DNA from: Bacteroidota bacterium
Lineage (GTDB): Bacteria > Bacteroidota > Bacteroidia > Bacteroidales > VadinHA17
Length of the DNA stretch: 50,938 nucleotides
Assembly: GCA_025350595.1 (NCBI GenBank)
Contig: JANXXP010000185.1
Location: forward strand, 1-50,938
Direction: 5' to 3'
Shown here: one piece after another, positions 32,602 through 43,465 of the stretch
Position numbering within the stretch: position 1 is the stretch's first letter
Layout of the letters: each line of letters starts with the position of its first letter
Notes under the pieces: generated by a model
Databases searched by the model: none
What the model saw: the letters and a program-made list of their open reading frames with translations, nothing else
Told to the model about the DNA's origin: nothing
Program-made: the position numbers and the translations under genes

Positions 32602-33846
32602 ATGAAGGATCTGCAAATTATTAAGCAAAGGTTTGGAATAATTGGCAACTATGAGGGACTAAACCGGGCTATTGATATTGCTGCCCAGGTTGCTCCAACT
32701 GATCTATCAGTACTCATTACCGGGGAAAGCGGAACAGGTAAGGAAACTTTCCCACAGGTAATTCATAGTTATAGCACCAGAAAACATGGGCAATACATTG
32801 CAGTTAACTGTGGTGCAATTCCGGAAGGAACGATTGATTCCGAACTCTTTGGTCATGAAAAGGGTTCATTTACAGGTGCTACAGAAAGCCGAAAAGGCTA
32901 TTTTGAGGTTGCCGACGGAGGAACGATTTTTCTTGATGAAGTAGCGGAATTGCCATTATCAACACAGGTTAGGCTTTTGAGAGTGTTGGAAACCGGTGAA
33001 TTTATAAGGGTTGGGTCTTCTAAGGTTCAGAAAACAAACGTAAGGGTTATAGCAGCAAGTAATGTTGAGGTTCCAAGAGCAATAGATAATGGCAGGTTCA
33101 GAGAGGACCTTTTTTACAGACTTAATACTGTTCCTATACGAATGCCTGCTCTCCGGGAAAGGGGTGAAGATATTTTCCTTCTGTTCCGGAAATTTGCAGT
33201 TGATTTTTCCGAAAAATACAGAATGCCGGCAATAAGATTGGATTCCGAAGCTAAAAATGCTCTGCTCAATTATTCATGGCCCGGAAATGTAAGACAGCTT
33301 AAAAACATTACTGAGCAGATATCTATCATTGAAAACGAAAGGGAAATCACTGTCGCTACTTTGCGTAATTATCTTCCTGAATATGGTGGTGTTAAATTGC
33401 CGGCAATAATAAAAAAGGAGGACGAAAAGTCATTTTCCTCTGAAAGAGAAATCCTTTATAAGATCCTTTTCGATATGAAAGGTGATATGAATGACCTGAA
33501 GAAGCTGGTCTATGATTTAATAAGGGGAGGAGACGCTAATCTTACTTTTCATGAAAGTAATTCAAGGATAATAAAGAACCTTTATAGAGAAGCCGATAAA
33601 GAGGAAACAGTTACCAAAAGTCCGGAAAGCGCCTCTGTAGAATTTTCTCAGCATCAGGTAAGGAATGATATACAGGATACGGAAGAGATTATTGAAGAAT
33701 CATTTTCGCTTGCCGACAAAGAGGTTGAAATGATAAATAAAGCTCTTGAAAAATATAACGGGAAGAGAAAGATGGCAGCGAATGAGCTGGGAATTTCGGA
33801 AAGAACCCTCTACAGAAAGATAAAAGAGTATGGAATTGAATCGTAA
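32602..33846 (+). CDS. sigma-54 dependent transcription activator without receiver domain
   Basis: A 414-residue bacterial enhancer-binding protein. The AAA+ domain starts almost at the N-terminus: Walker A GESGTGKE (41-48), the sigma-54 loop GSFTGA (88-93, canonical GAFTGA), Walker B TIFLDEVAEL (108-117), and RAL-type arginine region FREDLFYRLNTVPIRMP. A linker of about 100 residues leads to a Fis-type helix-turn-helix (KRKMAANELGISERTLYRKIKEYG). With no receiver, GAF or PAS domain, it has no evident input domain and may be controlled by a partner or by its level. The lptE ATG lies about 20 bases after the stop. This gene order with lptE and secG recurs in Bacteroidota. Confidence 0.93.
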   Translation: MKDLQIIKQRFGIIGNYEGLNRAIDIAAQVAPTDLSVLITGESGTGKETFPQVIHSYSTRKHGQYIAVNCGAIPEGTIDSELFGHEKGSFTGATESRKGYFEVADGGTIFLDEVAELPLSTQVRLLRVLETGEFIRVGSSKVQKTNVRVIAASNVEVPRAIDNGRFREDLFYRLNTVPIRMPALRERGEDIFLLFRKFAVDFSEKYRMPAIRLDSEAKNALLNYSWPGNVRQLKNITEQISIIENEREITVATLRNYLPEYGGVKLPAIIKKEDEKSFSSEREILYKILFDMKGDMNDLKKLVYDLIRGGDANLTFHESNSRIIKNLYREADKEETVTKSPESASVEFSQHQVRNDIQDTEEIIEESFSLADKEVEMINKALEKYNGKRKMAANELGISERTLYRKIKEYGIES

Positions 33847-35742: not shown

Positions 35743-35866
35743 GTTATATTACTAAAGTATTGTAATAAAGAATTTTACAGAAGTGGAATTTAATTTTTTT
35801 AAAGTAAATGTCAGGTCTGCGTATCTGAAAAATCACAGTGAACTCAAAAATGACATTATTTTCAAT

Positions 35867-35884
35867 TTGGCATGGAATATGCTT
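35867..35884 (+). promoter_or_regulatory. sigma-54-type promoter upstream of groES
   Basis: TTGGCATGGAATATGCTT has GG and GC separated by exactly 10 bases, with -24 element TTGGCATG (consensus TTGGCACG) and -12 element ATGCT (consensus TTGCT). Transcription would start near 35895, leaving a 35-base leader before groES. No CIRCE inverted repeat was found, and no exact TAnnTTTG box. Confidence 0.55.
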
Positions 35885-35929: not shown

Positions 35930-37874
<1,945 letters not shown>

Positions 37875-39910: not shown

Positions 39911-40597
39911 TTAACTTATCAGTTTATAACCTTTACCGTGGATATTCAGTATTTTCACTGCAGGATCCTTCTTCAGATACTTTCTCAAACGGGTTATATA
40001 AACATCCATACTTCTGGCATTGAAGTAATTATCATCAATCCATATAGTCTTTAGTGCGAAATTGCGTTCAAGGATCTGATTCCCATGACGACAGAGCAGT
40101 TCCAGAAGTTCCGATTCCTTCGTTGTAAGTTTGATTGGCTGATCCCTGTAACTAAGAATTTGCTTCAGAGTATCAAAAGTATAACCTCCGATATTATAAG
40201 TTTCCTCCTTTTTATTGTATATTGTATTGGATGTCCTTCTCAGGATGGCTTCAATCCTGTAAAGAAGCTCCTCCATCGAAAAAGGTTTTGTGATATAATC
40301 ATCTGCGCCTGATTTAAAGCCTTCAATTATATCCTCCTTTTGATTTTTTGCTGTCAGAAAAATTATCGGCATTTCCGGGTTTTTCAGTCGTATCTCTTTT
40401 GCAAGAGTCAGCCCATCCATTTCGGGCATCATAATGTCGAGGATGCACAAGTTGTATATCCTTACTGCAAACCCTTCAAGGGCAAAACTGCCATTAGTAA
40501 ACAGAGATGTTTCATAATTTTTGGCAGTGAGATAGTTCTTTAGAAGATTGCCAAGATTGTTGTCATCTTCAGCTAAAAGAATTCTGATATTATCCAT
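39911..40597 (-). CDS. OmpR-family response regulator (RprY-like)
   Basis: A 228-residue two-component regulator. The receiver has acidic D11/D12, the phospho-acceptor D54 in LCILDIMMPEMDG, T82 in FLTAKN, and K104 in YITKPFSMEELL. The OmpR winged helix follows (about 130-228: LTTKESELLELLCRHGNQIL, MDVYITRLRKYLK, IHGKGYKLI). The kinase gene lies 11 bases upstream. Order and sequence type fit the RprXY pair of Bacteroides, but the target genes are unknown. Confidence 0.93.
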   Translation of the reverse strand: MDNIRILLAEDDNNLGNLLKNYLTAKNYETSLFTNGSFALEGFAVRIYNLCILDIMMPEMDGLTLAKEIRLKNPEMPIIFLTAKNQKEDIIEGFKSGADDYITKPFSMEELLYRIEAILRRTSNTIYNKKEETYNIGGYTFDTLKQILSYRDQPIKLTTKESELLELLCRHGNQILERNFALKTIWIDDNYFNARSMDVYITRLRKYLKKDPAVKILNIHGKGYKLIS

Positions 40598-40608
40598 CTG
40601 TTATAAAA

Positions 40609-42165
40609 TTATTTTATTCCGTTTTGTGGAAGAAAAATAGTGAACCTTGTCCCTTTATTAATCTGACTATCAGCTTTAATCGATCCATCATGTTCTTCTA
40701 TGATTTTTTTAACATAGCTTAAACCAAGTCCAAACCCCTTTACAGTATGCACATTTCCGGAAGGTACCCGATAGAATTTGTCGAAAATCTTATTCATATT
40801 TTCTTTACTTATTCCGATCCCTTTATCTTCAATTGTAATAACTACACTTTTCTTGTTATTTCTTGTGGATATAGTTATTTCAGGTTTGTCTTTCGAATAC
40901 TTAATTGCGTTATCAATAAGATTGGATATTGAATTCAGAAAGTGAATTTCATCAATCATAACCAGGGAAAATGTTGCCTGATAGTCTTTCTTAATTACTC
41001 CATTGCAATTTGCGATCTGAAGTGCAAAATTCTCGACAGTTTTATCAAGGATTAAATGAACATCCATTTCAACTATATTGAACTTCATTTTCATTTTTTC
41101 AAATATTGCCATCTGAAGAACTTTCTCAACCTGAAATTTGAGTCTCATACTCTCATCGTTAATAATTCTTGCAAGGCTGTCGATGTTTTTATCTTTGTCG
41201 GCGATCGATTTGTCGGCCATCATCTGCGAGGCCAGGGATATAGTAGAAATTGGTGTTTTAAGCTCATGAGTCATGTTGTTTATGAAATCACTTCTCATCT
41301 CTGAAATTTTTTTCTGCCGAAAGATTACGATAAATGTACCGGTTGCGAGGATAAGCAGAAACAAGGTAAAAAGTAATGACAGGAATCCCAGGATTCCGAT
41401 TTTCTCGATTTTATACTGTTTTTCCTGAAGACAGTATAAAACGATCTGATTCTGACTTGGGACAGGATCATTAGGAAAAAGCTGGATAATGAATTTATTT
41501 GTCCCGGGTTTGTCTTTAAAACTTGGAGTGTTCCATATATTCCCAAATCGTCCCGAACGGATCGAGAATTCAAAATCAAGATTTATTCCGACGTTGTTCA
41601 GGGCGGTTCTAATCTGTTGTTTAAGTTTCTCGGGATCAATCCTTTCTCTGATGTCAGGAGTATTCCTGAGAATTTTTTCCATTATATTTTCAAGAAAAAC
41701 AATTTTATTACTCACCCTGCCTGTAATATCTGAAGTTGTAAATTGTGGGGATGGTTCTGACGTTTCATCAGGTGAAAACGGAGATGAGTCTTCGGCTGTT
41801 AAAAATATTTTATGTCCTGAACTGGTTATAGCTATTGGTTCTCCCGGAGTATTAAGTCCATACATTTTAAGAAGCGCAGAATTAGGCTGGTATCCATGGA
41901 GTTTTTTAGCAAGCGGGGAATTTGCCGGGACAATCGCAGTTATTGAATCAGTGGATGCCGGATCAATATCTTCAACAATATTCTTTATCAATTCCTTCTC
42001 TTCAAGATCGAGGACCACCGATTCAAGAGCTTTATTTGCTGAATAACGGAATTGCTGATCGGTTATAGCTATAGCATTGCGTATCCAGGAAAGTTGTATA
42101 AGAATCAGTCCGGATATGACCAGAAAAAAGAAAATGGCCAATAATACTATGGTTTTCCGCTTCAT
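40609..42165 (-). CDS. membrane sensor histidine kinase (RprX-like)
   Basis: A 518-residue inner-membrane kinase. Membrane helix 1 spans about residues 5-27 and helix 2 about 256-282, so roughly 225 residues face the periplasm as the sensor region, which has no recognised domain. The cytoplasmic part has the H-box MTHELKTPISTISLASQM (H300), the N-box SISNLIDNAIKYS, the G1 box EDKGIGISKENM and GFGLGLSYVKKIIEEHDG. There is no HAMP domain between helix 2 and the H-box. It is co-transcribed with the response regulator downstream. Signal unknown. Confidence 0.92.
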   Translation of the reverse strand: MKRKTIVLLAIFFFLVISGLILIQLSWIRNAIAITDQQFRYSANKALESVVLDLEEKELIKNIVEDIDPASTDSITAIVPANSPLAKKLHGYQPNSALLKMYGLNTPGEPIAITSSGHKIFLTAEDSSPFSPDETSEPSPQFTTSDITGRVSNKIVFLENIMEKILRNTPDIRERIDPEKLKQQIRTALNNVGINLDFEFSIRSGRFGNIWNTPSFKDKPGTNKFIIQLFPNDPVPSQNQIVLYCLQEKQYKIEKIGILGFLSLLFTLFLLILATGTFIVIFRQKKISEMRSDFINNMTHELKTPISTISLASQMMADKSIADKDKNIDSLARIINDESMRLKFQVEKVLQMAIFEKMKMKFNIVEMDVHLILDKTVENFALQIANCNGVIKKDYQATFSLVMIDEIHFLNSISNLIDNAIKYSKDKPEITISTRNNKKSVVITIEDKGIGISKENMNKIFDKFYRVPSGNVHTVKGFGLGLSYVKKIIEEHDGSIKADSQINKGTRFTIFLPQNGIK

Positions 42166-42355
42166 ACAGATGTAAAAGTACTTGTATATATTTTATAATT
42201 CCATACTTTAACTTTCTTTAACACCTTTGATTGTCTCAGCTGAAGGCTACAGAAATAGGAAGTATAAATAAATATTATATTTTAACATATCATTAAAATA
42301 TTGTTAATATTCAATTATTTAGGAGATTATATTTTTTTTATCCGGGAACTGGTAA

Positions 42356-42388
42356 TATATTTGCAGAGTATTTGGCACGATATTTGAA
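42356..42388 (+). promoter_or_regulatory. two overlapping promoter-like sites, one sigma-54 type
   Basis: TATATTTG (42356-42363) is an exact housekeeping -7 box. TTGGCACGATATTTGAA (42372-42388) has a perfect -24 element TTGGCACG and a TTG at the -12 position, with G to G spacing as in sigma-54 promoters; only the C of the -12 GC is missing (GA). Both point into the gap 42389-42480, which has no ORF on the plus strand. Confidence 0.5.
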
Positions 42389-42397
42389 TCACAGTAT

Positions 42398-42480
42398 ATA
42401 AAGGTTTTTTTCATAGGTTAGGTTAGTTTTAGGGTTATCAAAAGTGAGGCTGACGATCATCGTCAGCCTCTTCTTATTTT
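42398..42480 (+). ncRNA. candidate small RNA ending in a strong terminator
   Basis: Downstream of the promoter sites lies a gene-free stretch of about 80 bases. It contains AGGTTAGGTTAG (42415-42426) and ends in a 10-bp hairpin (42446-42470) followed by TTCTTATTTT. A promoter, a short body and a terminator without an ORF are what a small RNA gene looks like. The 5' end is estimated. It fills much of the 355-base gap between the kinase gene and the gene at 42521; the rest (42166-42355) is AT-rich with no other clear signal. Confidence 0.5.
42446..42480 (+). terminator. terminator of the candidate small RNA
   Basis: GAGGCTGACG (42446-42455) pairs perfectly with CGTCAGCCTC (42461-42470) around ATCAT; TTCTTATTTT follows. 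It could also end, from the minus strand, the gene that stops at 42521. Confidence 0.8.
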
Positions 42481-42520
42481 ATCTGCCTGAAGTGCATTCT
42501 CAGGATCGGGAATAAAACCT

Positions 42521-43015
42521 TTACTTAACAAGAATTTTAACCTTGGTAATTTTGATGTTCTTATCTAGTGCCATCTTGTAAATATTTTTAATGATACTTA
42601 CAGATTTTTTCTTCTCAATCCAGTTCAGATTAATGATAAAGAATCCCCCATCATTAAAGTTCAGCATTACTCTTTTTTGTTTGGATGGAAAAACAAGTTC
42701 CCTTATATCAGCCCATTTAAATAGCTTCATTTTTGGATTAATAATTCCAAACCGGAATTCTATTTTATCATCCGTTATTGAAAAATACAGATTTTTTCTT
42801 TTTGCCGTTGCGTAGTAAGCTATAAGGGTGACAAAAAGACTAATGCCGAAAGGTACAAAGGCGAAGGTCGCGTTTATATCCTTATTTCCCAGGATAAAAA
42901 CCCTAAATAAGATAAATACCGCAGCAACAAGAAAAAAGACAGCAACGATCCATAAAATGACTTTCCCCTCTTTTGAAAATTCGGCTTCTGCTAAATCGTA
43001 ATGTTGGTTTTCCAT
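42521..43015 (-). CDS. small membrane protein with a PH-like C-terminal part, unknown function
   Basis: A 164-residue protein with two membrane helices (about residues 18-38 and 48-67: VILWIVAVFFLVAAVFILF and FVPFGISLFVTLIAYYA). A cytoplasmic tail of about 95 residues follows, with the alternating pattern NLYFSITDDKIEFRFGI, WADIRELVFPSKQKRVMLNF and a final helix. This resembles bacterial PH-like (YdbT/DUF304-type) domains, but I cannot assign a family with certainty. It starts 3 bases after the IPExxxVDY-type gene and ends the acpP-fabF-rnc run on the minus strand. Confidence 0.6.
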   Translation of the reverse strand: MENQHYDLAEAEFSKEGKVILWIVAVFFLVAAVFILFRVFILGNKDINATFAFVPFGISLFVTLIAYYATAKRKNLYFSITDDKIEFRFGIINPKMKLFKWADIRELVFPSKQKRVMLNFNDGGFFIINLNWIEKKKSVSIIKNIYKMALDKNIKITKVKILVK

Positions 43016-43018
43016 AAT

Positions 43019-43465
43019 CTACTGCATTAGGTAGTGTAAATTTTTATCCTTAAAAGTATTTAGGTCAATTCTGAAGACTGCATTTACAGATTCGATTTCT
43101 TTGAGTGAGCCGGAGATCTGATTTATGTTATTATTATTTTCAGAATCATGTACCTGAAAAATGAAATCAACATTTTTAAGATTTTTTAGAAGGAAGTTTT
43201 TACCTGACCGATTTGAGAATAGATTGAAAATGATATCAGGAGAACCATTCGTATCAGAGAATCGGCTAAAAGTATGTTCAGGTCCTGTAACCTCAGAGAC
43301 CTTAACCGGAACCGTGTTCTTTAGAGAAATCCGGAATTTTTTATTGATAGAAAGAGAGAGTTTATAATCGGGTTCAGCTGAAACCAGGCCTACCAGTAAT
43401 ATATCGTTATTCTGGCTGATTTCAAGTTTTACACGTGTTACTTTTGATGCACTCTTCATCTTCAT
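43019..43465 (-). CDS. IPExxxVDY-family-like protein
   Basis: A 148-residue soluble protein. NDILLVGLVSAEPDYKLSLSINKKF near the start, IIFNLFSNRSGKNFLL in the middle and ESVNAVFRIDLNTFKDKNLHYL at the end match the layout of the Bacteroidota IPExxxVDY family, which commonly sits beside rnc and pyk. The literal IPE motif is not visible, so the call rests on layout and neighbourhood. A pyk gene, its usual partner, is absent here and the small membrane protein at 42521 follows instead. Function unknown. Confidence 0.55.
   Translation of the reverse strand: MKMKSASKVTRVKLEISQNNDILLVGLVSAEPDYKLSLSINKKFRISLKNTVPVKVSEVTGPEHTFSRFSDTNGSPDIIFNLFSNRSGKNFLLKNLKNVDFIFQVHDSENNNNINQISGSLKEIESVNAVFRIDLNTFKDKNLHYLMQ

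Follow-up and report, generated by a model that had tools for sequence, protein, structure and literature searches.

A locus in the 50,938-nt stretch of Bacteroidota DNA analyzed here (the window) is almost certainly the gene of a small RNA (sRNA). Its predicted product is a stand-alone regulatory RNA of about 80 nt, related to the FopS and GibS sRNAs of Bacteroides, and the joint explanation, that this RNA is sigma-54-driven and acts as a FopS-like repressor of SusC synthesis, is probably correct. A reading made from the letters of the window without database searches (the sequence-only reading) had proposed a promoter-to-terminator regulatory RNA at positions 42356-42480. The coordinates were correct on re-reading, and comparison with related genomes supports the proposal: the promoter and the body are conserved, the hairpin has been kept by replacement of its arms, and the sequence downstream is unconserved. 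The features of the locus are collected in Table 1.

Table 1. Coordinates of the sRNA locus, its neighbors and related promoter features in the window.
Feature	Position	Strand	Basis
Sigma-54-dependent activator gene; candidate activator by neighborhood	32602..33846	+	PF00158 (222.5 bits), PF02954
groES sigma-54-type promoter TTTGGCATGGAATATGCT	35866..35883	+	46 nt before groES ATG at 35930
Response regulator gene, adjoining the kinase gene	39911-40597		
Sensor histidine kinase gene, divergent left neighbor	40609..42165	-	Pfam PF00512, PF02518
TATATTTG, sigma-A-type -7 box (TAnnTTTG), possible second promoter	42356..42363	+	
-24/-12 type promoter TTTGGCACGATATTTG+A, sigma-54-like, -12 C absent (TTTGGCACGATATTTG itself 42371-42386)	42371..42387	+	
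Predicted sRNA, about 80 nt	42399..42480	+	5' end from -24/-12 spacing, 3' end from terminator
C-poor body GTTTTTTTCATAGGTTAGGTTAGTTTTAGGGTTATCAAAA	42404-42443	+	
FopS-like seed GUUUUUUUCAUAGGUUAGGUUAGUUUUAGGGUUAUCA	42404..42440	+	seed identity and SusC pairing profile
Intrinsic terminator hairpin, 11 bp, 3-nt loop	42446..42470	+	terminator-like site list, comparative stems
T-rich terminator tail	42471..42480	+	
164-aa protein gene, convergent right neighbor	42521..43015	-	
IPExxxVDY-type gene, beyond the 164-aa gene	43019-43465		

Conservation of the unit and of its hairpin

A BLAST search with positions 42330-42520 found the locus in 22 of 24 same-genus genomes (E 3.3e-19 or better). It occupies the same place in each: all 22 syntenic loci are flanked by the kinase and response regulator genes on one side and by the IPExxxVDY-type gene on the other. 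The 164-aa gene, whose product was taken for a small membrane protein in the sequence-only reading and matched no Pfam or NCBIfam family, was found by tblastn in 17 of them. In one of the two genomes without a match (G020) the kinase gene begins at base 12 of its contig, so that the sRNA site lies off the contig; in the other (G013) the best kinase match is only 33% identical. Conservation of promoter and body in relatives, which the sequence-only reading had suggested as a check, was thereby found. A search with the exact 33-nt seed pattern returned 49 named contigs, which belong to metagenome-assembled genomes (MAGs) titled Bacteroidales, Bacteroidia, Bacteroidota or Bacteroidetes in every case bar one, and the exact 33-mer was absent from the viral collection. 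One contig carrying both the sRNA and its promoter (L113) is filed under a methanogen MAG and is most likely a mis-binned Bacteroidales contig. Pooling the window, the 22 syntenic loci and the 49 named contigs gave 52 distinct sequences.

Because loci retrieved by an exact seed cannot measure the conservation of that seed, mean pairwise identities were taken from the 22 BLAST-found loci and the window only (23 sequences). Identity was 97.2% in the seed and body (42402-42440), 92.3% in the -24/-12 element and 88.3% in TATATTTG; it was 55.7% in the spacer, 54.2% over 42331-42355, 64.6% further upstream, 45.8% in the hairpin and 28.5% in the 60 bases 3' of the hairpin. A TTGTTAAT-type stretch at 42300-42308, about 90 bp upstream of the predicted start, is also conserved in the genus and could be an activator site or part of the divergent kinase promoter. 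A locus from another family of the order (L031, E 6e-4), in which motif and hairpin can be made out by eye, was set aside for want of synteny and of an RF04319 match at E<=10.

No reading frame was seen to be conserved in the unit. The body stretch CATAGGTTAGGTTAGTTTTAG contains four TAG triplets that close all three forward frames, in agreement with the earlier statement that no plausible ORF lies between promoter and hairpin, and a coding reading of the + strand was rejected. On the - strand ATGAAAAAAACC is start-like, but the frame that follows it is broken by indels between relatives (alignment, by eye).

The hairpin has the most pairs of the six terminator-like sites listed between 40000 and 46000 (the list gives the same stem once per strand). 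It had been described as a perfect 10-bp hairpin with a T-rich tail; both hairpin and tail are present, and the stem comprises 11 pairs, not 10. A stem of at least 6 pairs, located 38-42 nt after the seed start and followed by a T tail, is present in 52 of 52 sequences, and the tail contains 5-7 T within its first 8 bases in every one. There are 24 distinct 5' arms in the 52 sequences, with the stem found in each; at stem pair 3, for example, C-G occurs 23 times, G-C 19, A-T 8 and T-G 2. The compensatory changes that were to be looked for in the hairpin therefore take the form of wholesale replacement of both arms with pairing kept. Covariation was counted by script, since MAFFT leaves the replaced stems unaligned, and the stem finder takes the best stem, so that full pairing is true by construction. 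As a control, stems were sought 130 nt further downstream in the 50 loci (of 52) that extend so far; these had 3-10 pairs and an average of 2.2 G/C per 5' arm, where the real stems average 7.3. When arms were swapped between sequences, 64% remained paired. At the level of sequence, these comparisons show that the hairpin has been kept through replacement of both arms; terminator function alone would explain this. When the RNA was folded alone, the mean unpaired probability was 0.57 in the seed (lowest 0.35) and 0.02 in the stem, so the single-strandedness of the seed is moderate only.

The -24/-12 element and the probable use of sigma-54

The consensus of sigma-54 promoters comprises YTGGCAC at -24 and GC at -12, with GG-N10-G spacing between the two. 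At the sRNA locus TTTGGCAC occupies 42371-42378 and TTG 42384-42386, giving GG-N10-G, the exact -24/-12 spacing, with an A at 42387 where C is expected. This is what the sequence-only reading had claimed, namely a perfect -24 block and a TTG at the exact -12 spacing with only the C differing. The TTTGGCAC element is the only mismatch-free TTGGCAYN5TTG in the window. When columns were counted by anchoring on TTTGGCA, this block was followed by TTTG at a fixed distance in 50 of the 52 distinct sequences, the window included; the exceptions are L142, which reads TCTGGCA, and L106, which is without the -24 block. The base after TTTG is A in 31, T in 13 and G in 7 of 51 sequences and G in L106, and is C in none of the 52. 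This absence of the -12 C makes the sigma-54 reading weak when the sRNA sequence is taken alone.

The promoters of groES genes offer a comparison. The window groES gene (PF00166) is preceded by a similar element (Table 1), and TTGGCAY-N6-TG was found at all 20 groES loci of the genus, 59-73 nt before the assumed start (19 read TTTGGCAY). The base after TG, counted by hand, is C in 7, A in 7 and T in 6 of these loci, and the -12 letters are TATG in 16 and TGTG in 4, never the TTTG of the sRNA. The sigma-54 (SM4) promoters listed for Flavobacterium psychrophilum include those of groESL and lon, and the regulon also takes in a putative sRNA, Rfp36, according to the available part of PMC9723704; no FopS-like seed is mentioned for Rfp36 in that part. 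The likeness of this regulon, with its chaperonin and protease genes and putative regulatory RNA, to the present case is one of description. The sigma-54 reading is likely because groES of the genus shares the -24 block and the spacing, has a free next base, and has a sigma-54 counterpart in F. psychrophilum. The simplest account would be that sigma-54 in this lineage can do without C at -12 and has the sRNA in its regulon; transcription of the sRNA by sigma-54 is thus fairly likely. As the -12 C is not conserved at groES, promoter scans demanding GC would miss sites of this kind, and GC is an unsafe criterion for sigma-54 in the lineage.

The element also recurs elsewhere. The pattern TTGGCACGN4TTGNW gave 10 matches in 8 genus genomes (own genome included), against 2 for a reversed control, and none of them has the C. 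Four are at the sRNA locus, four precede an sRNA-like unit beside trpS (described below), one is some 90 nt upstream of a lon gene (PF02190, one genome) and one falls within a gene. RpoN is encoded in the genome with its three Pfam domains (PF00309, PF04963 and PF04552). The gene at 32602-33846, previously read as that of a sigma-54 activator, does contain PF00158; only its class is certain, since the NCBIfam matches listed for it are all below their cut-offs. In the same genome, TTTGGCAY-N5-TTG occurs about 60 nt before two long ORFs (L159, whose start has no Pfam match, and L154), which are possible further promoters of the -24/-12 class.

The same sRNA could instead be made from a housekeeping sigma-A promoter with TATATTTG as its -7 box and a start near 42369, TTTGGCAC...TTTG then serving as a site for an activator or as a conserved 5' element of the RNA. 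A TAnnTTTG-like box does precede the -24 element in 51 of 51 sequences (at a gap of 7 nt in 43, 8 nt in 5, 6 nt in 2 and 9 nt in 1), and both the missing -12 C and the TTTG unlike the groES form would suit such a promoter, as would the sigma-ABfr promoters of FopS in B. thetaiotaomicron (available text of PMC11697453). Those promoters lie directly upstream, however, whereas TATATTTG ends 40 nt before the seed with TTTGGCAC-N4-TTTG between. The spacing within the element is fixed in 50 of 50 sequences while the box floats over 6-9 nt, groES shares the same -24 block, and the trpS-side unit has the TTTGGCAC element with no TATnTTTG box just before it (by eye). A sigma-A origin is therefore unlikely, and sigma-54 is the preferred factor.

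Probable kinship with FopS and complementarity to SusC start regions

A scan of the whole window against Rfam at gathering scores returned a tRNA only. In a permissive scan, RF04319 (BTncRNA_FopS) matched 42404-42483 with 34.8 bits against a cut-off of 56, in an alignment that spans the whole model with an insertion in the R1/R1' seed. The locus is the top RF04319 match of its own genome (E 0.0034, with 150 of 801 candidates scored). RF04319 also matches at E<=10 in 8 of 14 control genomes, Escherichia coli included, so that the weak score by itself means little. At E<=1, matches were obtained in 7 of 11 orthologous loci scanned (of 22), at 30.6-37.4 bits with the other four falling below the reporting limit, and in one of three paralogous loci (L173). 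As the curated cut-off is not reached, the RNA is referred to as FopS-like and not as a FopS member; a FopS-like kinship is very likely.

The 14 paralogous FopS RNAs of B. thetaiotaomicron carry a single-stranded seed at the 5' end as well as a terminator; they pair with SusC mRNA start regions, repress translation and are bound by RbpB; conservation is reported within Bacteroidaceae (available text of PMC11697453). The present RNA resembles them in the kind of seed, GU(U)nCAU-G...UUAG..UUUA-GGUUA, followed by an intrinsic terminator, as well as in the predicted pairing over the SusC start codon, an RRM protein encoded in the genome (one, L101) and candidate further copies in the genomes, some of them after stop codons. 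It differs in the extra GGUUAG repeat of its seed, in having one syntenic main copy and weak paralogues where FopS has 14 similar copies, in its -24/-12 element where FopS has sigma-ABfr promoters, and in its uncultured Bacteroidales hosts, whereas the available FopS text speaks of Bacteroidaceae. With GibS of B. thetaiotaomicron, as that RNA appears in the available text, it has in common an R1-type seed at the 5' end, predicted here to act on start regions, and the form of a single intergenic gene with a non-housekeeping promoter (PM2 in GibS, a probable one here), a likeness of description and not of letters. A covariance model of the genus built from these loci (model R1) matched 9 of 345 phylum genomes, own included; the best E values of the other 8 were 0.0025-0.0095 (12 candidates scored per genome). 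Some of these phylum matches look antisense over ATGAAAA starts (by eye). Among the best matches of longer lists from the openly licensed PMC literature, taken by title and start of abstract, no sigma-54-driven FopS-type RNA is described, which is weak evidence for novelty.

The reverse complement of the seed, AACCCTAAAACTAACCTAACCTATGAAAAAA, resembles a start region. Duplex energies were calculated between the seed and positions -40 to +20 of start codons and expressed as z against 200 dinucleotide shuffles of the seed. SusC start codons were assumed to be the first ATG of the frame; for L087 the second ATG was taken by likeness to L088 after the energies, among which it scored best, were known. 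The own genome has 23 SusC-family matches, 15 of them with a usable start. Nine SusC genes, being those of the 11 matches with at least 689 bits that have their start in the contig, gave a mean z of -2.85 against -0.37 for 41 window genes (p 3.5e-6), and the difference held when all 15 starts were compared with the window genes (p 3.2e-5). In four relatives, the 30 of 72 SusC matches that were given as loci had a mean z of -2.59 against -0.38 for 120 internal ATGs (p 2e-12); p<=0.025 was reached by 21 of the 30 and by 6 of the 120, the other 9 SusC starts not being significant singly. Over the 39 SusC starts, pairing mostly involves the seed from 42405 to 42436, the start codon is paired in 85-87%, and a second paired block covers roughly -15 to -29. 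The pairing with the translation initiation regions of SusC mRNAs that characterizes FopS is thus found here in silico.

SusC is likely to be the main target of the RNA. It is unlikely, by comparison, that the main job lies elsewhere, whether with other starts of the MKK type, with a single special target or in sponging the RRM protein. In favor of such a job, FopS RNAs bind RbpB (available text of PMC11697453), 5 of the 15 own SusC-family starts, which are shorter and lower-scoring, show little complementarity, and the start regions of the SusD-like genes downstream in the same loci are complementary too, with a z of -1.76 and 12 of 30 at p<=0.025. SusD starts score above window genes, and part of the complementarity is therefore generic and common to SusD. 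The SusC starts, however, pair more strongly than SusD with the full seed (p 0.003, dinucleotide shuffles as in the main SusC test). With the leader-pairing half of the seed, which excludes the start codon and was scored against mononucleotide shuffles, z was -2.79 for own SusC, -1.75 for SusC of the relatives, -0.83 for SusD and -0.01 for window genes (relatives' SusC versus SusD, p 0.001; SusD versus window genes, p 0.003). ACTAAC occurs in 12 of 39 SusC leaders, against 0 of 30 SusD and 0 of 41 window genes. Judged by this complementarity, the AGGUUAGGUUAG part of the seed is the more SusC-specific one.

The existence of many near-perfect targets was considered and rejected, as TTTTTTCATAGGTTAG with 2 mismatches gave 6 matches against 10 for a reversed control. 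The start region of the neighboring kinase gene showed no complementarity to the sRNA (z +1.27). Four ORFs of relatives (L044, L047, L048 and L049) have start regions with ATGAAAAAA that match the seed in antisense and are further candidate targets.

It is very improbable that the locus yields no sRNA at all and instead combines a bidirectional terminator of the convergent 164-aa gene with leader elements that serve the kinase operon on the opposite strand. In favor of this reading, 50 nt separate the hairpin from the 3' end of the 164-aa gene. Against it, the hairpin tail reads ACTTTTGATA on the - strand and TTCTTATTTT on the + strand, the stretch that hardly varies is the 37 nt preceding the hairpin on the + strand, and the unit is still present in the 5 of 22 loci in which no 164-aa gene was found.

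A proposed circuit and further candidate copies

In the proposed mechanism of the sigma-54-driven, SusC-repressing RNA, RNA polymerase with sigma-54 and an enhancer-binding activator would start the sRNA about 12 nt after TTTGGCACGATATTTG, and the intrinsic terminator would end it at about 42480. The UUUUUUUCAU segment of the 5' part would pair with AUGAAAAAA across the SusC start codon, and AGGUUAGGUUAGUUUUAGGGUU with the upstream SusC leader, in sequences such as AACCUAA or CUAACUAA. This pairing would block translation initiation of SusC-type outer-membrane transporters and may be modulated by the RRM protein of the genome, in the part of RbpB. As with groESL and lon, stress on proteins or on the envelope may be the signal. 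Of this scheme, the sequence comparisons bear out the conservation, the pairing of the hairpin, the likeness of the seed to FopS, the complementarity to SusC and the shared promoter element, while transcription, the use of sigma-54, repression and the signal are inferred. The logic proposed, less large outer-membrane protein under proteostasis or envelope stress, is drawn from the presence of the same -24 block before groESL and, in one genome, lon. In enterobacteria, sigma-E, an envelope-stress factor, drives the sRNAs RybB and MicA, which lower outer-membrane protein synthesis; the parallel is offered as an analogy only, as the sigma factor is different and no relation in sequence is claimed.

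On this basis, Bacteroidota could have an envelope-stress sRNA circuit of their own, in which sigma-54, along with chaperonin and protease genes, drives the FopS-like sRNA and the trpS-side sRNA, so that SusC-type synthesis stops when protein quality control is strained. This wider proposal is tentative, its chances being a little short of even. If it is true, FopS would be an old regulator, wider than Bacteroidaceae, whose promoter has been rewired in different lineages. Repression of SusC by start-codon-pairing sRNAs would then extend beyond gut Bacteroidaceae and be tied to an alternative sigma factor; the hosts are uncultured Bacteroidales, and their isolate names suggest an origin in fens, digesters and sediments. 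With two sRNA candidates sharing one promoter element, a stress signal and a nutrient signal become testable against each other.

The second of these candidates is a conserved sRNA-like unit beside a gene for a class-I tRNA synthetase (PF00579; trpS by letters), found by pattern search in 5 of 8 genomes (L157, L221, L223, L224 and L225). The own-genome copy, L157, lies at G000:C206 near 24037 and has one change in the pattern. The unit consists of TTTTGGCAC(G/A)NAATTTG, a conserved body with ACTCAA/TCTCAA and TTGA...TTCA-type stretches, and a terminator-like hairpin GCCAGG...CCTGGC with a T-rich tail. Rfam matches in its vicinity were miRNA and snoRNA noise away from the unit and were discarded, none being on the unit.

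There are further candidate copies of the FopS-like RNA as well. The own genome has a second one, L051 (G000:C79:5847-5918; RF04319 33.4 bits), its other matches being weak. L051, L172 and L173 each consist of TTTTTTCATGGATTTAGGTTTAGGGTA and a hairpin, about 100 nt after a 119-aa ORF, and an RNA of the L051 type also occurs in G013, a genome without a match to the main copy. In the 13 same-genus relatives searched (of 24), model R1 gave 2-7 matches per genome at E<=1, most of them weak, and in the relatives the same motif also occurs in copies with different hairpins, some directly following stop codons. At L175 (G017:C29) and L186 (G014:C323) the FopS-like seed and terminator start no more than about 10 nt from a stop codon, which gives these RNAs the look of 3' UTR-derived sRNAs.
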